Source: Pochonia chlamydosporia 170
Taxonomy: Eukaryota; Ascomycota; Sordariomycetes; Hypocreales; Clavicipitaceae
Length of the DNA: 64,000 bases
Direction of reading: 5' to 3'
NCBI RefSeq assembly: GCF_001653235.2
Contig: NC_035794.1
Span: 1,736,001-1,800,000 of the forward strand
Below, piece after piece: positions 3,792-49,677 of this stretch. Positions within the stretch are counted from its first letter, which is position 1. Each line of letters starts with the position of its first letter. The position numbers and the translations under genes are program-made. The notes under the pieces are model-generated. The model searched no databases and was not told the origin of the DNA. It worked only from the letters and a program-made list of their open reading frames with translations.

Positions 3792-4813
3792 TCATGACAA
3801 CCAAGCATCAATTGCGCCTTTCAGCGCATCTTTTAACCATCCCTCATCATCAAGCCTCAGCTCAGAGTCAAATCCATGCTCACCATCCCTCTCCGTCAGA
3901 CTCACCCCATCACCGAGCACCTCCCTCGCACGTTTCACAAACCGCCGCACCGTCTGCACCGGCACTACACTATCATCCTTCCCGTGCAAGATGACAATGC
4001 CGCCCTTTGGAATGCTCACATTATCTGCCTCCAAAGCCTCCATCGGGAAATACACCCTCCTCTCCGAAGGCGTAGCATCCCCCGTCTCCTGCCCATATAA
4101 CCTCCCCAGTTGGCCGTACTGAATCGCTGCCAACATGAACTGCAGTCTCGCCTCAGACGTCAACGAAGTTTCTGCGGACTTGCCCTTTGTCGCGGCAAGG
4201 GTCTCATCATAAAATGATTGGGGGATACTCTCTCCAAAGGGCGCTCTATCTCGTGGTGTTACGAATTCAGGACCAACGGTATCGACCCAGGGGTACGTGG
4301 CGATGGCGGCGCTCACATCTTGAGGGCGGTTCAGCGCCGTGCTTACGCTGAGGAGCCCGCCTGCCGAGTCGCCTGCCAGGAGGATACGGGCGAGATCGAT
4401 TTCCACGGGCGGTGATTGTGACGAGAGGAGGTCTGTGAGTGTGGGGGAGTGCAAGTATTCCCAGAAAGAGGAGATGTCGCTGAAGATTTCGGGTGTGGTA
4501 GCTTCAGGGAGGAGGCGGTAGTTGGGGGAGATGGTGATGGCGGAGGTTGTGAGGGCGAGGTCAGACAGCCAGTGGGGGAAAAAGGGCATGTAGAGTGAGT
4601 CGCCCATGATCTGGAATGGTTAGTATTTGGAAGATGTGTGTTCATTGATGGGCTGTTTCTTACCAGGCCGCCGCCGTGGAAGCGGACAATGATGGGTCGT
4701 TTGCCGGGTTGGAGGGTTTGTGGGATGAGGATGTCGGTGCGGATGGGGTGGTTGTTGATGGTTTTGTAGGGGGTTTGGAGGACTTCGAAGCCTTTGAGTT
4801 TGGGGGACGTCAT
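3792..4813 (-). CDS. Alpha/beta hydrolase, HSL-type (alpha/beta hydrolase fold 3)
   Basis: Carboxylic-ester hydrolase of 322 residues. Exon 1 is 4813-4664, intron 4663-4611 (53 bp, GTAAG...CAG), exon 2 4610-3792; the total closes in frame. Oxyanion-hole motif HGGGL lies at residues 46-50, the nucleophile elbow GDSAGG at about 130-135 (Ser132), the acid in HGKDDSVVP and the histidine in DGEHGFDSE, so the catalytic triad is complete. No signal peptide, so probably cytosolic. It lies just downstream of the polyketide synthase on the same strand, with 0.8 kb between. It could act on the polyketide (release or de-esterification) or be an unrelated esterase; the sequence does not decide. Confidence 0.9.
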
Positions 4814-35354: not shown

Positions 35355-36197
35355 GATGGTACCAAGCTTCCAACGGAAAGCGAACGTAAAGCCTAAGGGT
35401 AGGTTTTGGAGATCAATGGATTGTCTGTTCTTTGTAAAGTTGCAACAAAGCCACCAATATTTATGTCAACGAGAGCCAAAGCGAAGTAATACATGGCAAG
35501 AAAGGATTCGTAATTCGCCTCTGTGATTGAAATCAGACTCAACACCAACTCCACGAGGCAATGCTTGATTCCACCTTGCCTACACGCGTCACTGCTACAT
35601 GTTCTCAGAAGGAATCTGGATCAAGAGCCATTACGCGTCCGTAGTGTATCTTCCCAAACAAGTAGTCTCCGCCGGTATAGAACAGAAACTCAGGCCAGGA
35701 CAAAGTGTTATATCCGAATCTAGGTTCCATTGACCAATTACAGGTTAGTTTGCCTATGGCAACGCAATGCCGACCAGTTGTCTCACGGTCAACCAATATC
35801 CGGTTGGCTTATCTGGATCCACAACTTGCTCAAGTGTCGGATAAGTTATGATTAGAGCCAACTCCTCTGACTCGCATACAACGACAAAGTAAATGCTGTC
35901 AATCCGAGAAATATCCTGATTGAGAGCCAAAATACACCTGGCATTCTTGTCGCTAGTAGTATATTTGGCAATTACGTGATCTGGTACCTGTGGACAGCTT
36001 TGCACTAGTAATCGTTTGCTCATTCTACATCTTTACTAACACCCAATGATGCTATGTCAATAATCAATATAGTTTAATCTTCCTTTCCAAGATGCTAACA
36101 GGCACACATCAAATGATCTGTGGCTAATGACTGCTGCTGGTCATGAACTTTGCCAATAAATGTAGACTGTCCCGCATGAATGCTACGCATTCTATGC
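35355..36197. other. Intergenic spacer with two unassigned open frames
   Basis: 843 bp. On the minus strand, an ATG-started frame at 36023-35754 (89 codons) and an overlapping one at 35796-35605 have protein-like composition. I found no splice pair joining them in frame and no family match. They could be remnants of a lost gene. Confidence 0.4.
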
Positions 36198-37174
36198 TTA
36201 CTCGAGGGACGAATACAGCGCAAAAACATCTTCGGCAGCTTGTCTCACCATGGAACTAGGGCCCAAACCATACAAAAAGTGTTGAGGTGTCAGCATCCAC
36301 CGACGAATGTGGCCAGCCAAAATGTCTTTTCCCAACTTCCCAATCTCGCCCGCAGCCTGCTTCGTCAAGTCCTTCACCAAATTGTTAACCGCCGCCTTTT
36401 GCACTTGATTGAGATTAGATCGACTAAAGTTATTCCAAATAGCCTTTAGCTTCTCAATAAATTTGATCGGATCGTGTGGGAACTGGTCTATCAGGTTTGT
36501 GCAAAGTGGATCGGGTGTCGTGGTTTCGCAATATGAGAGCATCTTTGTATTGCCAGGCAGAGCAGGGAAGTTGATGGTATCTTGCCAAATGGACACGGGA
36601 TCTCCGAACGTGACGAGGGCAATTATCCGGGCTCGCACAGGTACATCTCTTAAGTTGACGCTTTTGTGTGCACATAGCGCCCCTTGGCTGTACGGCCATG
36701 AGCATGTTAGATTCAAGGTAAAAAGAGTAATGTACTAACCTCCATCCCGAGATGACGATTTTGGAAGAACGACAACGAGAAGAATACTCTTCGACAGCAT
36801 GGCGTAGACTGATAGCGCACGATTCCGGTCCTCCATCTTCAATGTAACCTTTGAGGTTGGCTAGATAATCGTGCGGATTGACCCCTTGAAAGGCAACCTT
36901 ACCGTCACCGAATTTCTCAATCAGCGCCTCGTGAAATGGTTGACCGACCCATGGGCCAATGTTCCTGTGACGTTTGGTTAGACGAGAAATCTAGTTTAGA
37001 TCTTTCAGTGTCTTACCCAGAGTCGAAAGTGCCTCTGGCAAATATTACTGCCAGGTCGGCACAGTTATGACTGTTCCAATCGTCTGCAGTGTCGTTCAAT
37101 GCTGTGGTTGTCACGGGTGAGCAACCCGAAAGGCTGGCGAGGCAAAGAAAACAAGTGAATATTGTGGAATACAT
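36198..37174 (-). CDS. Cutinase-family (CE5) secreted esterase
   Basis: 290 residues in three exons (37174-37017, 36964-36740, 36687-36198) with two 52-bp introns; joins give FDSGNIGPWVGQ and SGWSQGALCAH in frame. Signal peptide MYSTIFTCFLCLASLSGC, then NCADLAVIFARGTFDSG, the cutinase start. The nucleophile motif is GWSQG (Ser128; usually GYSQG), followed by VTFGDP and the acid in CETTTPDPLC. It is longer than typical cutinases (about 200-230), with roughly 60 extra C-terminal residues. It hydrolyses cutin-like or other short-chain esters outside the cell. Confidence 0.92.
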
Positions 37175-37899
37175 GGCGATTAGATTGTTCGTTCGGTATG
37201 GGACATAGCCACACAGTTTCATCGCCGGCACAGACTTGGAGCAATCATTGAGAGCAAGCTGTTTCGTATTGTACTCGAATACCGTTTTCCATACAAAGAT
37301 ATTCTCTCCGGTGCCGCCGATGATTCGCAGCTTCAGTGTAACATTAACGCTAAATACAAGGCAAGCCACATCAATTGATCCATTTTGAGCCCGAAATCTG
37401 CCAGGGCAGCTTCACGATTGGTTGATGTACGACAGGAAGGATCAAGCTAGATCTCAACAGGCACCGGTTTCCGTTGGCCAAAGCGTCTTGCATCCCGACA
37501 TTCATTGATGCAGACCGGCTCGTATTACACCAAATCAAGCGTTGATAATACTGTCTGGTATGTTGCTTTGAGGTTTTGACTGCATATTCCTCGATAGCAG
37601 GCTTATGCCAATGTTCAATACAGTTACAAGACGTAATATTTCGACAGGCAATCACAAAATCTTAGCAGAGTCACTTATGAAAAAAACAAGATTGTATTGC
37701 TAACATATGACATATTGTACAGTGAAAGTGCCGCCTCTGCCCCCAACAGCCATGTTGCCCAACTGATTACCGGCATGTAGGACCAGAGTATAATAGCCGC
37801 TTTGGCTATGGGCAATTGAGTCTGAAAGGACAACATGGATCAAACGTTTGAGATCTGGCTTGTGCCCAGCCTAGCTACCCATTTCGAAGCTTTTGCTCC
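37175..37899. other. Intergenic spacer
   Basis: 725 bp between the cutinase start and the ankyrin gene stop; no convincing gene. Confidence 0.6.
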
Positions 37900-38640: not shown

Positions 38641-39616
38641 TGTAGTGTTGCAGCCTCGATGTATGTCAAGTCATGGGCCTCTCGTGGACATTTTGACGAC
38701 GAAGCGCCTGCCAGTATCCTTACTGGGAGGTTTACTATTCTCTAATTGAGTTTCTTCTTGACTTCCACAGAACTCATAATATCATGGGATTCTAGAAACT
38801 GACTATGGACAGAGCCCGACAATGGCGGTAGTCTTCCTTGGTTTTCCGGTGTCCAGCTAAAGTACTAAAGCGAGTTCAACAGCCGTTTTCTATGCACTTC
38901 ACGATGTACACGTACACCTTATATTCTCTCAAGGTTATGTCACACAAGTCGCCTCCAAGATCTCTTTATAAGCTGTTCCTCCTCAGTCCAGCAATGTCAC
39001 CCGCAGTCACGAGCTGGAAACCTGATCTTTGTTTGCCCGATTGGACTCTACGAGAGAAGCTAGCCGACGATGAATTCCCGCGTTAATATTTGTCTTGCAA
39101 TTGCTAGCATAGTAATTATCGCACGCAAGCGCGACTAAGCAAGAGAGCTATAAGGCTAAGCTTGGATTATTAATATAGTAGTCTCTAGCTTAAGAGAAAA
39201 ACGCTAAGCATAAAAAAGATAATTTTTACTATTAGTTTTATTTATAAGACATTAAAAATTTTTATAATAATCTTTAATTATTCTAAGTAATATAAATCTG
39301 TGAACATAAACCTCGCCTGGTTTACCCGTTAGAAACCCCAGTTATTACAGGTAGACGCTAGCGTATTTCCCAAGATTCTTAGGTATTTTATTATTCTGCC
39401 TACTTATATAATTAGTGAGAAGGCTACAGATTCTATTTATATAAATTATTAACAAGAATATATTTGGTAACTACTATTACCTTTTGTTGCTCTCTATTTA
39501 GTGTCGAGTATAATTACCCTTTTACTTATTGCGGCAGCGGCGGTGGATACCACCTGAATAAAGTTGATTTAACAGTTAACATTGAGCGTTAGATTCTGTT
39601 AAGTCGGGAAAACACG
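38641..39616. other. Gene-free region ending in the A+T-rich island
   Basis: 976 bp without a gene; its second half is the island described next. Confidence 0.6.
39090..39600. other. A+T-rich, RIP-like island
   Basis: Base composition drops sharply: the line at 39181-39240 has 15 G/C of 60 and 39241-39300 has 7 of 60. It is TA-rich with no open frames. This is the usual look of a transposon relic mutated by repeat-induced point mutation. The last exon of the MFS gene begins directly beside it. Confidence 0.6.
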
Positions 39617-41469
39617 TTATCTCCGGGGGCTTTGCGACTTTTGTCGCCAATTTTGGCCGTAAAACCGTAGCACTTTTACTGGCGTTAGCGTCTGGTACTA
39701 CTCACACGATTGTAAACGCAACTCAACTCACCTATGACCGAGCTCCCAACAACCACCAGGTCCAGGAGAGCAAACCCTGTAAAAAACCATGCAATGCCTA
39801 TCCGTGTCACCAACGGGGGGTATAAAACTGCAGCTATAGCCGCGCCAGGGTTGCGTAGCATATTTCCAAGCGCAAAGGCTCCCGCGGCCTGAAGCGGAAC
39901 ACATTCGCCCAAAAAAGCAGTTGTAGCAACAAAAACCCAGCTCATACCAAAGCCAGCTAAGGTCGCAGTCAGCCCCAGGAGTCAAATGCGGGATGATCTC
40001 GTGAATCATAGTGATACTTACTCAGGAAAGTTGCAACTAGGATCGAGGCGACATGCAGTGAACTGTGAACAAACCAACCAAACATAACGGTCCCAGCCGC
40101 ACAAAGGAGCACACCCCATATTTGGTCAACCAACCTGCTTTCAGGCTCAATTTTGCCATCAGGTATTGCAGCTACCATTCTTGCCCGGCGCCAATCACTT
40201 ACCCTACCGCCAACAAGAGACCCAATCATAAGGGCAATACCAACTGCAACATAACCAGCGCCGATCTCTGTTGTTGACCAACTATATATATCTTCTAAGG
40301 CATGTGGCAGCGCTACCATCATAGCAAAGTAGGTTGAGTATAGGATAGCGGTATTAACTGTTACAATACCAATCGGCGGGTATGAAAATAACTTCCAATA
40401 GCCGAGGAGTGTGGGCTTTGGTGGTTTTGGTCCACGCTGGGGTTCTGATACAAGATCTGACGTGATTTTGGGCGGAAAGAGTATCCAGCTCTTTCCCTGG
40501 AATACTTGACCATTACCAACTCTGTATCGAAGAGTCTCGGGCAGCATGAACAAGATCGTGAGCCATACCACAAACGACAAAGCAGCTGAGAAAAGCAGTC
40601 AGTATTGCATGGCTAGCCCAAACATATCGTGTTAGCACAAACCCAGAAACCCCGGAATCCATCTCCAATTTCGTTGTCCAGCTAAAGCAGATCCCAACAC
40701 GGGTCCAAGAACTGGACCACATTGCGGCCCAAGAAGAAATATGGACATTGCAGTGGCCCGCTTCTTTGGCTCAGTTGTCTAATGTGATATATTGTTAGCA
40801 AGATTACACGCAATCGCGGGAATGTGTATTATAGGCTCACATCCGCGACTGTACCAGCACCCATCGACATTACCGCAGCCGACCCGAAGGCGTGGACTAT
40901 TCGCAGAAACATTAAGCTGCCGAAATTCTTCGGCAGTGCAGCAAGAAGAACATTGGATAAGATGAATATCGCCAATGATATTATGTAGAGTGGCCGCCTT
41001 CCACTGACATCCGCAAAGCTAGACCAAAATAATGGCTATTCGAACAAGTTAACAGACTACAATTTTGCTTCCACACCCCTCTTCCTAGAAACAGTAAACT
41101 CACTGCAATTGCAAATGTAATCATGAACACTGAAACAGTTGCGTTAATGCTCGTACTTCCGACATTGAACTCCCTCTCTAACAGTGGCAGAACAGGCAAG
41201 TAGATTCCACCCGACAAAGGGCCTAATGCTCCAGCTACCGTGACGATGCTAAGAATTAGCCTCCGTCGGCCTGGCAACAAAGCACAGTATACCGGCGGCG
41301 TCAAACTCTGTGTGTCATTCTGGCTAGGTCCCAAATTTTCCACAGTAGTTGACGAGACAGGTGGCTTGTTGGCTGGGTCGATGCTATGGGTGGTCTGGGT
41401 AGTTGTGTTGTACGACCTACTTCTAGGCGTATCAGAGAGCGTCTGCTGCGGTGCTGTATCGTCTGCCAT
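39617..41469 (-). CDS. MFS exporter, DHA1 family, Qdr3/Dtr1-like
   Basis: 515 residues in six exons. Introns: 41103-41036, 40840-40779, 40642-40586, 40021-39957, 39731-39679; the total closes in frame. Splicing restores FAIAPLFWSSFADVSGRRP (MFS signature loop), GPQCGPVLGPVLGS, LPETLRYRVGNG and a short last exon giving LRFYGQNWRQKS, a normal cytosolic tail. The N-terminus is long and Ser/Thr-rich. PETLRxxVGNG is characteristic of the yeast Qdr3/Dtr1 branch of drug:H+ antiporters. Dtr1 exports bisformyl-dityrosine during spore-wall formation. Given the DIT1-type synthase and P450 downstream, it may export their product; inference. Confidence 0.93.
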
Positions 41470-42346
41470 GTTATATGTCCCGCTATAAAAGTATCGCAAT
41501 GTTCACTCCCAGTGTTCTTTTGGACGAGCTGCAGGAATGGATGTTGCGAGCTGCTTTTGAGGGTGACTATAGAAGACTTGCAAGTCGATGTTTACAGATT
41601 GGCCCAACTCTGCAAGATCGAGAAAACAGAAATCCATTCATCGTGTATCCACCTCTATAGAATTACTACTCATTAGCGGGCGGGATGAAAGCCGAGTTGC
41701 CAATAAGAGCCCGTGACTGACATCGCTCCTGTCGCGCCTCGGTGTGAATACGAAACAATTTAGGTCAGTTTGCCTGACTAGGACCTGAGATGCTCGTTTC
41801 GATATTGTAAATTTTAAATTTCATAGGTCTAAAGTTTGGACAGCATCCAAGCGCGTGGATTTGTAATGTGTGGCCTGAGATTACGCTGCAGTGTCATCCT
41901 GCGCGAAAATGAGCAAGTTTATCTTGGGACAAATGGAGGTCGTAAATTGCGCGTGCGGACAAATATTGATTAGATGATATATGTGGTGGAACCAACACCC
42001 TTGACAGTGGATTAGTGTGTCCGAAACTCACATCAGTATGGGCAGTTGTGCACTACGTTTTATGCTTGATAATGGGGAGTTAGTTTTGATGTTTATTATT
42101 CGCTCGTTGTGCTGAGGTGCTGGGAGTAAAACGCTGGAAGTTGGTGAGTTGCGGAAACTTGCGCAACCACACTTGGCGTTCATTTATTAGGGAATCTCAC
42201 TTCCTATTCTTTCATGTTAGCACCAAGTTCTTCTATATTGTTGGACTTGGCCCATCCAACTTTCAGCATCCATGTCTTTCGCTGAGGCATTGTCATCAAA
42301 AGGATACGGCACTCTGGATCGGCAGACTCATCACAGAGCTGACACA
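41470..42346. promoter_or_regulatory. Divergent promoter of two MFS genes
   Basis: 877 bp between divergent starts. No GTCAGC array of the polyketide-cluster type; a single GCTGAC lies just before the right-hand start. Nothing else recognised. Confidence 0.5.
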
Positions 42347-44307
42347 ATGAACGACAACCACGGCAAACAGTCTTCTTCGGAAAATGACGGCCAAGATAGA
42401 AAAGTGCCTCTCGTCACTGATCGTGATCCTGAAGATGGTGACTCGTCATCTGTACCACCCGATAACGCAGCAGCCCCAATGAGCTCAAAGAAGGCGTTAT
42501 GGGCATGGCTAATATTATGCTTCTCTGTGAGCTACTTCGACGCCGCCACACAGTTAAAGCAATGAATCACTGACTATCTACTGCACAGACTGGACCAACA
42601 ACCGGCATGGTAAACAGCTATGTCACGGCTAGCATCCAATCCGCGGCCAATGCCGTAGGGCATATTCCAGGCACGAACAAGCCATGCGCTCGGCAAGGCG
42701 CAATTAAGTGCGTTGTTAAGCTGGGAGGCCGAGATGTTGACTACCTCAGCTACCTGTAAGTCCAAGTGAATCAGATTGCTTAACAAGCGTTTAAACAAGA
42801 ACATAGGATTTGGCGAAAAATGCTGACAGAATCGCAGACTTTACTTGCGCTCCATCAGCAGAGCAACAGAGGGGGTTGTATCTATTCTTGCATCGGGGCT
42901 TGCCGATTTCTCGAACTACCGCAAGATGATGATGATGTGTTCAATTTACCTCTATGGAGCGTTGGCACTGCCTTTCGTGGGGTTGACAGGTAAAACCTAC
43001 AGTCATCTAAACGCTCTGTCCGCACTATATGTCATTGTTTCCACGGTTTCGGGCATGTACACTGTTATAGAAGCATCATATATTCCTATTTTCATGCGGT
43101 CCGTCGGCTGGTTTCGACCAAAGGCAAGACTTCAGGATGTGGATGAAGCCCAAACAACTAAATCCGATAACGCTACGTGGACACAGGGCAGTCTTGTCAG
43201 TGTCCTCGGTCTGGTCTCGGGGAACCTGGGAGCTATCTTAGCATTACTCATTGGCGTAATTATCACTTACAGCAAAGGAAGTTATGTTACGGAAGGATAC
43301 TTCAAGTGAGTGCTTTAGAACTGTGGCACATCCGATGCAAATGCTAACCATGTTTTTCTTCCGCAGTTTCCTATTGGCTATTACCATCGGTGGCTGTCTT
43401 ACAAGTAAGTGTCCATTTGCACTTTGTTTTGTCTTCTTCTTTTTCCTTGGGGGGCGCACTAACTGTGTTATTTTACAGTCATTTGCGCTATTGTTGGACA
43501 CATTCTTTTGCCCAATGTGCCGGGTGCAGCACGACCCAAAGGGAAGAGTATCTTTTTGCTCCCCTTGCGCACTTGTAAGCAAACCCAGTCACATTAAAAA
43601 GGTCAGCTGGCAGGAAATAAACTTACACTATTCCAATAGGGTTCAAGATTCTAGGCTCTATCCGACGATACCCAAATGCATTTAAGCTCTGTATTGGGTG
43701 GGTCTTGTGGAATACTGGATATAGCAACTTCCTACAACTTCTCGGCGCCTTATTCCTTGAGACCACAGGTCTTCAAAGAGGTAGTAGCGTATACACAGTT
43801 TATAGTTTCATGATGATTATCTTTGCTTGTATAGGCTCGCTAAGTTGGCTATTTAGCTTCCGTCGCGCAAAGCTGCATATTAAGAGTTGGGCTTATATCT
43901 TTCTGTCTACTAATATTCTGTGTGTATTTTGGGGCTGCTTGGGTATTAGCTCTAATATTTCTATCGGATATAAGCACCAAGCAGAATTCTGGGTGGCTGA
44001 CTTTCTCTTTATGAGCACAAGTAGCGCTCTACGGTCACTCAACCGAGTGTTATACTCCTCGATTATACCAAAAGGATCTGAGGCAGCCTTCTTTGGCCTG
44101 GAAATTACGCTTGACCTTGCAACAGGGTGGATTAACCCTCTTGTTCAAGGTGTCATACAGAATAGGACGCACAATCTCAGATTTCCTATGATTCCGAACT
44201 TACTACTTATGGTTGCTGCCCTGTTGCTATACATTTGGACAGATGTTGATCAAGGCATGCGGGACGCGGAAACACCGTTAGCGTCGGAAGCTATTGCTAC
44301 AGAGTAA
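42347..44307 (+). CDS. Atg22-like MFS membrane protein
   Basis: 538 residues in six exons: 42347-42526, 42589-42755, 42838-43305, 43367-43404, 43479-43574, 43640-44307; the total closes in frame. Joins give CFSTGPTTGMVNSYVTA, YLSYLLYLRSISRATEG and GYFNFLLAITIGG. The layout and the NYRKMMMMCSIYLYG segment fit Atg22-like transporters, whose yeast founder releases amino acids from the vacuole. About 12 hydrophobic segments; Ser/Asp-rich N-tail. The ATG at 42347 is preferred; an in-frame one at 42272 would add 25 residues. Paired with the Qdr3/Dtr1-like gene, it may move a precursor amino acid or a product across an internal membrane; inference. Confidence 0.85.
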
Positions 44308-45496
44308 TCCTTAGACGGGTTGATATTCGAACAAACAAGACGCCTTTTGTATCTTTACATAGCAGACAAAATTGGAACAATCATACCACTTATTGAGCTC
44401 ACGGTAGATAGCGACATGTATTAGATACACCACGATTAGGTGATGGCTAACACGACATGTGGTTCAGCTAAAGTGTATGAGATCCTCCTCCCTCTTATGG
44501 CAGTCACTGCTCACTCCACGGTCAACCTAGGTATAATATTACCCTGGCAAGACATACAAACATCACCCGTAAATTTTGAATTATATTTACACCTTTAGAA
44601 GGATTCAATTACCACTAACAAGTTTACTTAGAATTTTCAGGAGCTGAAATCTGTTTGTCGTACACAATTAGATGTCAAAGACGCAGGTTCACAGCCCATT
44701 TGTTCTGGCAATATTGTTGGAAACCATCGATTACGAGGGGTATGCCGTCAAATGGCAAAGGTGAATCACGACGCTTTCACGACCATACTATATAGCACGA
44801 AATTAAGAAGATACTTTTAGTGTAGCTTGGTTAGAGTATAAGTGTGAAAGTATAGAGGAGACAAAGCATGAGTGACATCAAGTAAAGATAAGAATTCTCG
44901 TTAATGAACTTTGTATTTCGGAAAATATACACACCAAATGCGGCTATCTATAAAGAAATCTCAATCCGCCCTCACACGGCTCAACCATCGTCGTAGTCCA
45001 CCGTCGATTTAGCTGGTAGCCTATTAATAGCCGCTGAGAATGGGTGTGAATCTAAATGGAAAGCTGTGCGAAATATCTTTATTTTGATGTCCAATGATCT
45101 CTGTGATTTGGATCTTTATGTTTGTTCACTAGTGCGCGGTAGTCATGTTCATATCGAAAAGCCAGCCTAGGTCTAGCTCCGTAAGCGTTGAGTGATGCGC
45201 AGGGGCAGGAAACTATAGACAGTAGTTCGTGTTGCGAGAAGATCAGAGGACAACAAAAGACAGCTCATAGTATGTACTGTAAGATATTTGTTCTACCATG
45301 TAATTGGACCACTATCAGTTAAATGAGCGTAAACGTCATATCAAGCAAAATACGACGTGGATACAACGACCGCGAATATCGTGGCTAGTAGAGGATATGT
45401 CCAGTTCTAAACCTAACACTGAGAAAAAGCCAACAGAGAATTGAAAAGAGAAGACTAAAAAAGGCTGCACAGTCGTGAATAATATGTCCCTGATGT
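44308..45496. other. Convergent intergenic spacer
   Basis: 1.2 kb between the Atg22-like and isocyanide synthase stops. A+T-leaning, no coding signal. Confidence 0.6.
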
Positions 45497-47213
45497 CTAC
45501 CTCGTAAGGCAGACGTACCCCCCTTGTTCTCCAGCCTCAACCAATTCAGCTTCATAGTTGCTAGACTCCAACGCTTTCCATACGGCGCTCGCCTTTGTTA
45601 CGAACAAATTGGAAAACCCGTTAACCTCAACGATACAATTATGCCAGGGAGTCGGTACATGCAGCTGATCGCAACAATCGAGGGCAGCGCCACTTGGTGG
45701 CAGCACGTCAGTGGGCACAACATGCTTCCCTAGCATTTGAATACCAAATTTTGGACCGGAGTTATCGTGACTAATTTATGGTAAGCGCCACAATCGTTCG
45801 GTAGGAATAAACAAGCCGAGTAACCTACGCATGTATGGAAAGGCGGACATGATGTGGAAACATCATTTGTACCAAATTTGAGTAAGCCTGGTTTCGCTGC
45901 ACGTGATTAATGTTAGCAGTGTATAGATCCTTTTAAATGATAAGAACGGTATTACTTGAATCATCTCAAAAGCGATTTTCGATGATGTCTTTCTAAGCTG
46001 ACTTTTGCTTAGATGGCGGGTGTATGCATTGGTGGCGAGATCCTCTAGCATAAACCTGGAGAAACCTCGATAAAGCGCAAGCATTGTCGCATCTTTTGTA
46101 TCGAGAATCTCTCTAAGCTTGGAGCTATCTAGCTGGAACCCCATAGTTAAAATCTTTCGGCACGTCTCGGCTTCATTGGTCAACTTGGTTGCGATAAAGT
46201 GCTGTAGTTCTGGGAGCTGGTCTTGGATGAAATCAAACTGTTGCAATTCCTCTCGACAACTATAACCAAATAAGTCCAGAAGAGACTTAAACCCGATCCT
46301 GTCCTCGCCGCCGTGGCGAGCCACAATAGCCTCATTCATTGCTTGGAGTTGTGCTCCATACGTGTCAACGACGTCATCGTCAACACCGACTGCATGTGTT
46401 AGTCCTCAAGTGTAGATTAAAAACTATCATAGACGGCATGCGCTTACTGCAGTCGCTAAAAACGTGTCCGTCGCTGATTATCCAAAGTTTAGCTCCTGGC
46501 TGGTAAATAGCTTCTATTTCTTGTATAAACGCATGTAAATTTGCCAAGGCTATGTGCTCCCCGCGATCTGGGGCTGTAGACAATACTTTATTTGTGCTGG
46601 ATGACTTGCAGGGAAACGCTGGAAGACAAAATTCAACTTTTGCGCCTCTAGATGTGAATGAACTGATTTGTTGTCGGAAGACGTCCCGGCCCCCTTGTGA
46701 CCATTTGTCGTGTCTGGCAGCATATCGAAGGGTTGAGTCGAATATATCCACTATAGACTCTGTGACTCGTTCCAGGTTAATTTCTTGGAAAATTTCTGTA
46801 TGTTTTGCTGTTCCCACTTGCAATCCAGAAAGAATCAGGCTCGCAAAGAAGAAGTCGAGCCTGGTAGACACCGGCGCGGATGTGTGGGCATCAATGCTCA
46901 ACACGATACCAACAACTTGTTGATCCATCGGCCGTGGCATCTCTAATATCGCATATTCGTTTCCGGCAATCTGTATTCGACAGCTACAAATGCCTGCTAC
47001 CCCACGTTTGATCTGCAGACCTGCATTTGGCAGGTGGCTTCGCCATGCGTTAAGGTTACAATGGCGCAAGACATGGTCCTCAATCCCAGACCAAGTTGCG
47101 GAGAGTAGACTTGACGATGGCCCGAAAGAATGAATAAGCTTGCCAGATGACTGACGCACAAACCCTGCAATGAATCTGTCGTGTATCGAGGATTTTGACC
47201 AAGAGAATGTCAT
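45497..47213 (-). CDS. Isocyanide synthase family protein (DIT1/PvcA)
   Basis: 513 residues in four exons. Introns: 46447-46390, 45955-45897, 45828-45771; the total closes in frame. Start MTFSWSKS at 47213 (GCGAAATG). The conserved domain runs from about residue 180: LWIISDGHVFSDC + IGVDDDVVDTYG across intron 1, RNQAYSNLVQMMFP across intron 2, HAHDNSGPKFGIQ across intron 3, then PTPWHN. This family converts the amino group of Tyr/Trp or other amino acids to isonitrile (PvcA, XanB), or makes N-formyl-tyrosine in yeast spore walls (Dit1). The first 180 residues are unlike bacterial PvcA and are not recognised; yeast Dit1 is also about 500 long. No TauD or other fused domain. Divergent from a P450, as DIT1 is from DIT2. 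Confidence 0.93.
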
Positions 47214-47976
47214 TTCGCCGGTAGGAGAAGGCACACTAGGACAGAGGCAAGACAAAGCCAAACAAGCCGTCGACAAAGTTTTAAGGACTAACCTAGGTAC
47301 CGAGTAGGTAGTGCTGGGTCACAAGTACTGCATAAATGAACCTTGAGTTGATGAACAATTTTTTTTTGCGTTGTGTCTAGGTAAGTGTTTATTCATGATT
47401 TCTAAGTGCGAGCTGATGTTGGTCCCCTGCTGGCCATTACGAGGCGCCTCATTTGATAAGAAGCCCATTCACCGTTCTGTATATTAATTATACACGTAAT
47501 GATTATTGAATTACAAGGCGCAAATTGTCCTCACGGTTCGGAGCTGAGTCGGAAATATACCACTGCGGTCTAGTGCGCGACATTTGAGCAAGTAATTTCG
47601 AGTCACTATAATATGACATCTGCAATCTTCTCACACGGGAGAAACCCCGTTCTCTCGTCCTTCGGAATGACACCTGGAGTTGCGGATGATCACCCATTGC
47701 GACGGTGGGGGTTATTTTTGCCTCGCTAATGCATTAGACTGTTCCCACCACGGCGGATAAGCCAAAGTATGAGGTCTGGTGAGCTGTCACTTTTTGCTTT
47801 ACCTACTTGGGCCACGAAGCATCAAATAGTTTGTGATTAACTCTGGCGGCCATCCGATAGCCCCAACCCAGAGTGAATATAGCGTCGGTCCAAGGGGACC
47901 GATGATTTTGGCGAAAGAGTACTCCATATTTGGCTGCTCAGTTGTGTTTTGTTCTACAATCCACCAAACATTCATC
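47214..47976. promoter_or_regulatory. Divergent promoter of isocyanide synthase and P450
   Basis: 763 bp separating the two starts, arguing for joint control. It carries AACCTAGGTA at about 47290, also seen at 44524 beyond the synthase's 3' end. No recognised operator. Confidence 0.5.
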
Positions 47977-49677
47977 ATGGCAGCAACGATCTTTGTGGCC
48001 GCTTTGTTTCTTTCCATGTTTATTCCCTTGACTTTACTTGTCAAGTATTTTCTACTACCTCTGCAACAGATTCGCAATATACCGACAATTCCATTCTGGG
48101 TGGCATTACTCCCGCTTATCAAAGATGTCGACCAGCAAGAGATATTCAAGAAACACATTGATAAGCCTCTCCAAAAGCATGGTGCAGTAAAGATTTTCTT
48201 TGCCGCACAATGGAATGTGCTAATTCATCGACCTAAGTATATGGCCGAGGTATTTAGGCGAGAAGAGGCATACCAAAAGAGCGGAAACCAAAAGAAGATC
48301 CCCCATAGTGTTCTGGCATCCTTACTGGGAGATAACATAATATCCAGCCATGGAGAAGTCTGGAAGTCATATAGACAAATCATCAGGCCTGGGTTGCAAA
48401 TCTACCCTGACCTAGAGGTCTTGCTTAACAACGCTGAGAGACTACGCAAGATCCTAGTTAGCACGCAGGCGCTAGCTATGCGTCGTGGCGTGGGTATCCA
48501 GGAGAGCATTCAGCGGTATACAATTGCAAATTTTGCTCAGAATAACTTTAATATCGATTTTGGGGTAAGTTTATCTGAACAGTATTGCAAAGTAGACGGA
48601 GTACATGAGAGTTATTGGCTAACCTAAGTATTTGATATTGTAGACCCTGCACTCAAAAGATGCATATTTACACCGGATTCAATACAAGATCAAAAAAGAA
48701 ATATTCAAGCCCATCTTTATGAACTTTCCATTTCTCGATCGCCTGGGATTTCGCAGCCGGCAGCAAGCTAGGCAGCTGGCATCCCATTTCACTGACCAAT
48801 TAGTCCTGGCACTGGAGACCGGGGCCCAAGACAAAGAGACGTCTGAATACCAGAAGAGTAAACTACCGAACTTACTTCTTGCCGCCAGGTCCTCTGGGGC
48901 ATTGACAGAAAAGCAATTTCGGGACAACGTCACCGTCTTGTTTGTCGCCGGGCAAGAGAATCCGCAGTTGGCCATCATGTCAACACTGTATTTGCTTGCC
49001 AAGCACTCCGTATGTACACGTTTCCCTGTATGGTTTGATCACGGTGGTGATACTAATCTCGTAAAAGGACATGCAGGACCAACTCTTTGACGAACTAACA
49101 GCTCAATACGATGGGGAAGTTAATCAAGAGTACCTACAAAGCTTGCCCTTATTAACATCAATCATTTACGAGAGCCTACGGCTATACCCGCCAATTGGGC
49201 AGTTGATCAACAGGCGGGTCTCTCAATCAATCACTCTAGGAGGCGATATTTTTATACCAGAAGGAACATACATAGGCTACAATTGCTACTCCACAAACAG
49301 AGATCCGGAAGCATGGGGAGATGGCGCAAATGACTTCCAGCCAAGAAGATGGGGGCACACATGTCAGGATATCCAGAAAGAGTATCGGAGGCGGAGGGTA
49401 CGTGCGGAGTTTATTTCCTTCCATGGTGGGCAAAGAGCATGTCTGGGTGAGCGATTCGCCATACTACAACTAAAAGCAACGTTATACGTGCTCGTGAGAA
49501 GTCTTCGGTGGCGACTTGACCCCAAATGGTCGGACAAGATGACGCCTGTAAGTGCCCATTTGTACCGTGGAATGAGGTCGGTTCCAGCGCATCGTGGATT
49601 TTGCTAACAGGTGGCATATATAGGCCGGTCCGCTTTGTCCAAAAAACTTGCATCTAATTTTTGAGGAGAGAACATGA
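47977..49677 (+). CDS. Cytochrome P450, CYP56 (Dit2)-like
   Basis: 495 residues in four exons: 47977-48564, 48644-49009, 49068-49547, 49624-49677; the total closes in frame. A membrane anchor (TIFVAALFLSMFIPLTLLV) is followed by IRNIPTIPFW. The I-helix reads FVAGQENPQ, the K-helix ESLRLYPP and the haem loop FHGGQRACLG (Cys443). The AGxEN I-helix, with Asn instead of Thr, and the NIPTIPF/KSGNQKKIP stretches resemble yeast CYP56 (Dit2), which couples N-formyl-tyrosines; this is from memory of the family. The short last exon (AGPLCPKNLHLIFEERT) replaces a read-through end at 49607. Likely modifies the isocyanide synthase product. Confidence 0.92.

Follow-up and report, generated by a model that had tools for sequence, protein, structure and literature searches.

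A duplicated, probably dit-type isocyanide synthase cassette with a possible link to copper shortage in a filamentous fungus

A cassette of four genes, coding for an isocyanide synthase (ICS), a P450, an MFS exporter and an ATG22-like transporter, was found twice in the genome of a filamentous fungus. The cassette is proposed to be of the dit type, to lead to an exported tyrosine isocyanide or N-formyl product and to be induced, probably, by copper shortage; the probability of this reading as a whole is put at about 0.5. One copy lies in the window, the stretch of 64,000 nucleotides analysed here. Together the two copies have four divergent promoters; the 9-mer TGAGCAAGT was present in three of these, including both promoters of the window copy, and the same word occurs upstream of copper-transporter (Ctr) genes.

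The window cassette was confirmed to consist of four real, intact genes (Table 1). Its limits, 39617-49677, are the outer stop codons of the gene models, which contain no internal stops and only GT-AG introns. The start codons of the divergent ICS and P450 genes are separated by 763 bp, and the MFS and ATG22-like genes are also divergent, with 802 bp between their start codons. The original prediction had placed a divergent isocyanide synthase/P450 pair beside an MFS exporter and an ATG22-like gene, and both the gene models and the Pfam matches agree with this.

Table 1. Genes and composite promoter elements of the window cassette (window positions)
Feature	Position	Strand	Description	Basis
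MFS exporter gene	39617..41469	(-)	513 aa, 6 exons, DHA1/QDR-like	hand-made model
Composite element TGCGCGA-AAA-TGAGCAAG	41900..41917	(+)	in the divergent promoter of the MFS and ATG22-like genes, whose start codons are 441 and 354 bp away	
ATG22-like transporter gene	42272..44307	(+)	554 aa, 6 exons	hand-made model
ICS (DIT1/PvcA) gene	45497..47213	(-)	513 aa, 4 exons	hand-made model
Composite element TGCGCGA-CATT-TGAGCAAG	47574..47592	(+)	in the divergent promoter of the ICS and P450 genes, whose start codons are 372 and 384 bp away	
P450 gene	47977..49677	(+)	495 aa, 4 exons, Dit2-like by position and partner	hand-made model

DIT1_PvcA (2.8e-91) was the sole Pfam domain of the spliced ICS, at residues 183-488 of 513 and preceded by a long N-terminal part. 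The protein thus has neither a dioxygenase nor an NRPS part, as is typical of the dit superfamily, and the divergent P450/ICS pair, a second feature of that superfamily, was present in both copies. Its PDB matches were PvcA and proteins of the tyrosine/tryptophan isonitrile synthase family (3e-32 to 9e-32). Against the NCBIfam model of the L-tyrosine isonitrile synthase PvcA (NF045653) it scored 138 bits, with a curated cut-off of 600 bits, and it appears to be a relative and not a member of this family. The spliced P450 (Pfam p450, 4e-53) has the I-helix AGQENP and no close relative among the best 60 of its 245 PDB matches. The spliced MFS protein (Pfam MFS_1, 3.4e-44) had Quinidine resistance protein 2 (Qdr2) as its best PDB sequence match (3.7e-33), as expected of a DHA1/QDR-type transporter, which the original prediction had called Qdr3/Dtr1-type; Bcr/CflA and related drug-efflux models scored below their cut-offs among the best 25 of 43 matches. 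The ATG22-like protein matched Pfam ATG22 (PF11700) over its full length (1.1e-133; residues 72-543, model positions 2-482 of 482). As it was only 22-24% identical to the other Atg22-type matches in the genome (C4:4554874 and C6:1252583), it was not filed as Atg22 proper and seems to represent a divergent subfamily.

Matches to the same four genes (copy B) were found at C5:1093360-1103064 on the same contig, about 670 kb away, with the ICS/P450 half inverted relative to the window cassette. The MFS, ICS and P450 genes were modelled in each copy. Their proteins were 74.0%, 61.7% and 72.6% identical, respectively, intron positions and phases were identical, and differences at third codon positions were 2 to 5 times more frequent than those at first or second positions. 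The ATG22-like gene of copy B was 75% identical in the two longest matches and 51-84% in shorter ones. When 390 window frames of at least 60 aa were searched against the 28 kb around copy B (tblastn, E 1e-4), they matched only inside the four genes, and no other window content was shared. The scanned ORFs that flank the cassette in the window are mixed, including a PKS/NRPS cluster, a tannase, a cutinase and an esterase. The cutinase-domain ORF, which is some 2-3 kb from the MFS gene on its outer side, was considered as a fifth member and rejected because there was no cutinase match around copy B.

The word TGAGCAAGT was first spotted by eye in the dit promoters, and its counts there are therefore post hoc. 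Two 9-mers occurred in at least three of the four dit intergenic regions, one of them TGAGCAAGT (mean 0.29 in 100 shuffles). Confined to the dit promoters, this is a weak test: the shuffle maximum was also two, and two of the four promoters are homologous to each other. The composite element was found at three places in 44.2 Mb, all within dit cassettes, and its reversed control at none. Outside the cassette, one further exact copy of the 9-mer is present at window position 35824.

A de novo search of the 1-kb regions upstream of five Ctr genes returned TGAGCAAGTT as the only 10-mer in at least three of them (174 genome copies; 0.02 expected, P 1e-6). TGAGCAAGT itself was upstream of three of the five Ctr genes and absent from the other two, and none of the 21 loci used as controls (9 sugar transporter and 12 P450) had it (Fisher 0.004). 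Eight of the P450 controls matched in mid-gene, so that their upstream stretch is partly coding. These sets were left after removal of 2 of 7 Ctr rows (later exons), 3 of 12 sugar transporter rows (later exons of the same genes) and 8 of 20 P450 loci (six pieces of the dit copies and two later exons of a gene on C7). In one Ctr promoter TGAGCAAGT adjoins TGAGCACA, which is the reverse complement of the published MacA site TGTGCTCA (PMC6514546). Neither the literal Mac1 word TTTGCTC nor TGTGCTCA was present in the four dit promoters. A looser copper word, TGAGCA[AC][AG], was rejected as unspecific, being upstream of 4 of the 8 mid-gene P450 controls and 1 of the 9 sugar loci; TGAGCACA was upstream of 2 of these 8 P450 controls. 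The genome has two copper-fist matches and a crm-type cluster, in which three TGAGCAAGT copies lie near the starts of two MFS ORFs and no exact copy lies close upstream of the ICS gene. The earlier suggestion of a role for copper limitation thus gains from a promoter word common to the dit and Ctr genes of one genome, but in copy B the promoter between ICS and P450 contains it only with one mismatch.

This resemblance to copper-uptake promoters hints that the product may concern copper hunger rather than, or besides, spore walls. In the proposed pathway, the ICS would act on L-tyrosine to give tyrosine isocyanide, or the N-formyl form that results from its hydration; the P450 would couple or otherwise oxidise this product, and the MFS protein would export it. 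The ATG22-like carrier might move the amino acid or an intermediate across an inner membrane, or take the product up again. Under copper shortage, a Mac1/MacA-type factor could act on TGAGCAAGT(T) to switch the cassette on, a step held with moderate confidence; given such a switch, the product would serve to handle copper or to compete, and part of it might or might not go to the spore wall. The xan and crm clusters of Aspergillus fumigatus are up-regulated by copper starvation (PMC10153163), and tyrosine isonitrile is reported as a stable product of a fungus picked for its Dit1-like protein (PMC13005658). Against this pathway, it has been argued that yeast Dit1 does not mediate isocyanidation (PMC7345447). 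A bolder form, in which the mould dit cassette would be a copper-starvation system whose isocyanide or dimer binds copper outside the cell, with export by the MFS protein and uptake or vacuolar handling by the ATG22-like carrier, is considered unlikely. If it were true, an old copper-responsive isocyanide pathway would have been put to use later as the dityrosine pathway of the yeast spore wall.

Rather more credible than this bolder form, and still on the doubtful side, is a plain spore-wall module, in which the ICS and P450 would make N,N'-bisformyl dityrosine for export by the MFS protein to the wall of conidia or ascospores; the promoter word would be incidental or the target of another factor. 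The DIT1/DIT2/DTR1 gene content matches, yeast Dtr1 is a dityrosine exporter (PMC3744438), and deletion of DIT1/DIT2/DTR1 in Coccidioides gave thinner arthroconidium walls (PMC12077801), which also counts against a copper-centred explanation. The presence of the dit promoter word in Ctr promoters counts against a spore-wall module. Promoter words of developmental regulators (BrlA, AbaA, StuA, Ndt80 and Wor1/Ryp1) were scored by their consensus; they were either not in all four dit promoters or too common to inform. AbaA words were in all four and BrlA words in three, but there are 98 and 44 of these in the window, and the Wor1/Ryp1 word was in none of the four. The yeast pathway is not known to include an ATG22-like gene, and a literature search found no paper joining Atg22 and dityrosine. 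The wall-bound product put forward in the original prediction draws its support from relatives and none from this sequence itself.

Control by pH through PacC, as proposed for the take-all fungus, is much less probable still. In Gaeumannomyces tritici the dityrosine enzymes and transporter are expressed more highly at neutral pH and each of the three has PacC words upstream (PMC7392285), and GCCARG was found twice in the MFS/ATG22-like intergenic region of the window copy and three times in that of copy B. It was absent from both ICS/P450 intergenic regions, and is frequent in the window (101 occurrences).

It is even less likely that the cassette is a xanthocillin-like (xan) or crm cluster, although XanG has been called a homologue of Dit2 (PMC5974471), so that the pairing of an ICS with a Dit2-like P450 is not confined to dit. 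Among the neighbouring ORFs scanned (short ORFs excluded), neither a hydratase nor a separate methyltransferase gene was seen, and the window ICS has no dioxygenase or NRPS part. The genome also holds ICS-dioxygenase (ICS-DOX) and ICS-NRPS enzymes, and in the ICS tree the dit enzymes formed a pair (100/99) separate from these (100/100), with very long branches between and the genome's own four enzymes as its fungal rows. The window ICS appears to be of neither type. A 93/91 branch, to which a long-branch warning applies, had all four fungal enzymes on the same side. No ICS relatives were found in IMG/VR or in a first GTDB scan; a GTDB scan with the query and plasmid-borne bacterial ICS (6 of 13 records fetched, 4 in the query alignment) gave 333 relatives, the best 80 of which were kept. 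The bacterial rows were picked by likeness to the window ICS; 1 of 86 loci had no usable frame, and filtering at 60% identity removed 60 of the 85 rows. Bacterial ICS in the 13 plasmid records matched the genome's ICS-DOX with scores equal to or slightly above those for the window ICS (best 144 versus 129 bits), and the published placement of dit ICS nearer to bacteria was therefore not reproduced. Finally, a chance grouping of unrelated genes, for which the mixed neighbouring ORFs might speak and under which the four would not be conserved together, is refuted, since the whole cassette is duplicated on the same contig and no other window frame matched there at E 1e-4.

That moulds can carry a DIT1/DIT2/DTR1 module is not new, having been published for the dit superfamily, Coccidioides and Gaeumannomyces (PMC10153163, PMC12077801, PMC7392285). 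The predicted module thus stands as regards its dit-type look, genes that travel together and a word shared by three of four promoters, but not as regards novelty. An ATG22-like fourth gene and a rearranged second copy were not found in the available portions of published dit accounts. The survey of these clusters calls for the study of mould dit products (PMC10153163). Here, two dit cassettes, a crm-type cluster and Ctr genes have a common promoter word in one genome, and the copper question is therefore directly testable. If copper control is true, it would join the spore-wall pathway with the copper isocyanides and give the ATG22-like carrier a testable role.

The dit superfamily (Nickles et al. 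2023, PMC10153163) resembles the window cassette in having the ICS divergent from a P450 in filamentous fungi, with an MFS gene nearby in some clusters and several copies in some species. The window cassette differs in its ATG22-like gene, in its inverted second copy and in a promoter word of copper-transporter genes; ATG22 is not mentioned in the main text of that survey, its available portions state no known metal association for dit, and a complete, internally inverted second four-gene copy was not found in them. The six-gene DIT cluster of Coccidioides likewise combines DIT1, DIT2 and a DTR1-like MFS gene and includes a cutinase-domain gene, recalling the ORF near the MFS gene in the window, but its main text names no ATG22 (PMC12077801). 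It is Ryp1-dependent (PMC12077801), whereas the Ryp1/Wor1 word is absent from the window cassette's promoters. The take-all fungus has dityrosine enzymes and a dityrosine transporter (PMC7392285). The DIT1/DIT2 genes of S. cerevisiae, with DTR1/QDR3, are alike in the divergent ICS-like enzyme and P450 and in the QDR-type exporter. Yeast DTR1 is not known to be linked to DIT1/DIT2, and no ATG22-like partner is known there. The crm and xan clusters of A. fumigatus share ICS chemistry, but their ICS is fused to NRPS-like or dioxygenase parts and the window ICS is unfused; copper-starvation control is reported there (PMC5974471) and predicted here, in a genome whose crm-type cluster carries the same promoter word as the dit cassettes.

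Four gene models with GT-AG introns were made by hand for the cassette in the window (cassette A), and the whole genome (44.2 Mb in 49 contigs, with the window at C5:1736001-1800000) was searched with each protein. The limits of the original prediction, 39617..49677, are the outer stop codons of these models. All four genes were matched again on the same contig (cassette B). The predicted genes are real and conserved. The DNA just beyond the MFS exporter gene (window 39200-39540) is AT-rich and, by eye, looks RIP-degraded.

Genes of the two cassettes and other isocyanide synthase (ICS) loci
Feature	Location	Strand	Evidence
MFS	window 39617-41469	-	hand model, intact; Pfam-confirmed
ATG22-like	window 42272-44307	+	hand model, intact; Pfam-confirmed
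ICS	window 45497-47213	-	hand model, intact; Pfam-confirmed
P450	window 47977-49677	+	hand model, intact; Pfam-confirmed
MFS_B	within C5:1093360-1103064	-	74.0% identity to copy A
P450_B	within C5:1093360-1103064	-	72.6% identity to copy A
ICS_B	within C5:1093360-1103064	+	61.7% identity to copy A
ATG22-like B	within C5:1093360-1103064	+	75% in two longest matches, 51-84% in shorter
ICS with TauD dioxygenase part in next ORFs	C1:6771254		profile matches
ICS with AMP-binding, PP-binding and transferase parts (crm-type enzyme)	C2:4044331		profile matches

Intron places and phases were identical between the copies in the three genes modelled twice (MFS, P450 and ICS). The copies of these genes differed by 0.57-0.61 per site at third codon positions, compared with 0.12-0.21 at second positions, an excess which indicates that both copies have been under past selection for protein sequence. 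The gene order is MFS-ATG22L-ICS-P450 in cassette A and MFS-ATG22L-P450-ICS in cassette B, the divergent ICS/P450 pair being flipped as one block. In the 28 kb around cassette B, no match from the window frames (390 frames of at least 60 aa, E 1e-4) was detected outside the four genes, and the conserved unit is therefore MFS, ATG22L, ICS and P450. The first exon of ATG22-like B carries one in-frame TAG (stretch L009 ~4050-4240, C5:1096050-1096240) and the later pieces are in open frames; this gene may be misread or no longer functional. The copy in the window is intact. A small ORF of 129 codons, without a Pfam match, lies between ATG22-like B and P450_B (L009 6424-6813, C5:1098423-1098812), and no counterpart was found among window frames of at least 60 aa at E 1e-4.

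The ICS profile PF05141 was matched at four places in the genome. A tree built from 29 rows, of which 4 were own and 25 bacterial (the latter from 85, thinned at 60% identity), paired the window ICS with ICS_B (100/99) and the C1 enzyme with the C2 enzyme (100/100). Very long branches separate the two pairs, with a software warning of long-branch joining at this place. The window ICS thus belongs to neither the dioxygenase kind of C1 nor the crm kind of C2, the latter being flanked by two MFS ORFs (Pfam), an alpha/beta hydrolase and an acetyltransferase-like ORF. Architecture and partner gene, and not a tree that includes yeast Dit1, are the grounds for regarding the window ICS as a putative dit member. 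In an alignment of ICS, ICS_B and four bacterial enzymes, 45 columns were invariant, including LPAFP, DG, RLSIH and TPWH, and the predicted enzyme thus bears no sign of being dead. Its neighbour in NCBIfam was the tyrosine isonitrile synthase PvcA, with a score far under the model's cut-off.

Besides copy B, the closest P450 in the genome was at C7:2528971-2530493 (44-54% per piece), followed by C5:2757774 (30%); contig C7 had no PF05141 match. Both cassette P450s have AGQENPQ in the I-helix, compared with AGHENV at C5:2757774; of the 14 own loci scanned, four others gave a motif, which was AGxDTT or AGxETT. This threonine loss would be in keeping with a P450 that acts by coupling and not by oxygen insertion. 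The C7 locus (C7:2528890-2530583, L035 7891-9584) is an orphan Dit2-like P450 adjoining a beta-lactamase-family ORF, without an ICS. At C5:2757645-2763465 (L037 2646-8466), the AGHENV P450 and an MFS (30% and 28%, respectively, to their counterparts in the window) lie in 6 kb and are possibly a distant cousin pair. The best match of the cassette MFS among solved structures was Qdr2, and no PDB relative of the ATG22-like protein was found by sequence.

The divergent intergenic regions of the cassettes measure 802, 763, 883 and 732 bp. Two 9-mers, TGAGCAAGT and CAGCTCGCA, were common to at least three of the four on either strand, compared with a mean of 0.29 and a maximum of 2 in 100 dinucleotide shuffles; TGAGCAAGT had been noticed by eye before the count. 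TGCGCGA stands 3-4 bases ahead of TGAGCAAGT at three places genome-wide (reversed pattern, 0), namely both cassette-A promoters and the MFS/ATG22L promoter of B, a confinement which is partly circular as the pattern was derived from these places. The non-circular part is its presence in both cassette-A promoters, which are unrelated. In cassette B, the ICS/P450 promoter shows no more than TAAGCAAGT.

TTGCTCA recurs in the yeast Mac1 word TTTGCTCA. It also resembles the MacA word TGTGCTCA, as given in passages of PMC6514546. Because of this likeness to words of copper-starvation regulators, the upstream regions of the five Ctr copper-transporter genes in the genome were examined. TGAGCAAGT was present 497, 630 and 544 bp ahead of the matched domain in three of them, compared with 0/9 sugar-transporter and 0/12 P450 loci (Fisher 0.004), and in a de novo search TGAGCAAGTT was the sole 10-mer in at least three of the five 1-kb upstreams. 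Genome counts were 174 for TGAGCAAGTT (122 for the reversed word) and 550 for TGAGCAAGT (319 reversed), so that the 9-mer is somewhat rich throughout the genome. In the Ctr promoter on C2, TGAGCACA, which is the MacA word read from the opposite strand, adjoins TGAGCAAGT. Three copies of TGAGCAAGT in the crm-type cluster lie no more than ~0.4 kb ahead of the two MFS ORFs, and none is close before its ICS gene. Copper-fist matches in the genome numbered two. A further TGAGCAAGT at window 35824-35832, ~360 bp ahead of an ORF for a tannase/feruloyl esterase, counts against specificity, as does a looser form of the copper word that is common in some control loci.

Window 6555-33251 holds a PKS (KS, AT, DH, MT, ER, KR) with a zinc-dehydrogenase ORF, a P450, an RTA1-like ORF, a C-A NRPS piece and an ABC transporter, probably a polyketide-peptide cluster adjoining the dit cassette. 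A cutinase-domain ORF (window 36457-36990, Pfam; likely upstream exon 37013-37411, by eye) lies ~2-3 kb beyond the MFS gene, and had no match in the 28 kb around copy B (E 1e-4). The dit cluster of Coccidioides has a cutinase-domain gene too.

The novelty claimed in the original prediction, a DIT module in a mould, was largely pre-empted. The dit clusters of filamentous Ascomycetes fall into three clans, of which clan 3 shares an MFS gene with Onygenales (PMC10153163); Coccidioides has DIT1, DIT2 and DTR1 in a six-gene cluster, where deletions thin the arthroconidium wall (PMC12077801); and G. tritici has dityrosine enzymes and a transporter that are pH-dependent (PMC7392285). In open-licence PMC literature, Atg22 was not found together with dityrosine. 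In passages of a fungal paper that names dityrosine, copper and Mac1, no link between them was seen, nor any copper control of dit in passages of papers on DIT1, DIT2, copper and isocyanide. Two leads are put forward as new: the link of the promoters to copper uptake, and the duplication of a four-gene unit that includes an ATG22-like carrier. The pairings in the cassettes resemble those on bacterial plasmids (records L042/L044), where an ICS lies directly behind a P450 in Streptomyces and is followed by a Bcr/CflA MFS exporter in Burkholderia. The cassette itself is a real, conserved variant of the published kind.
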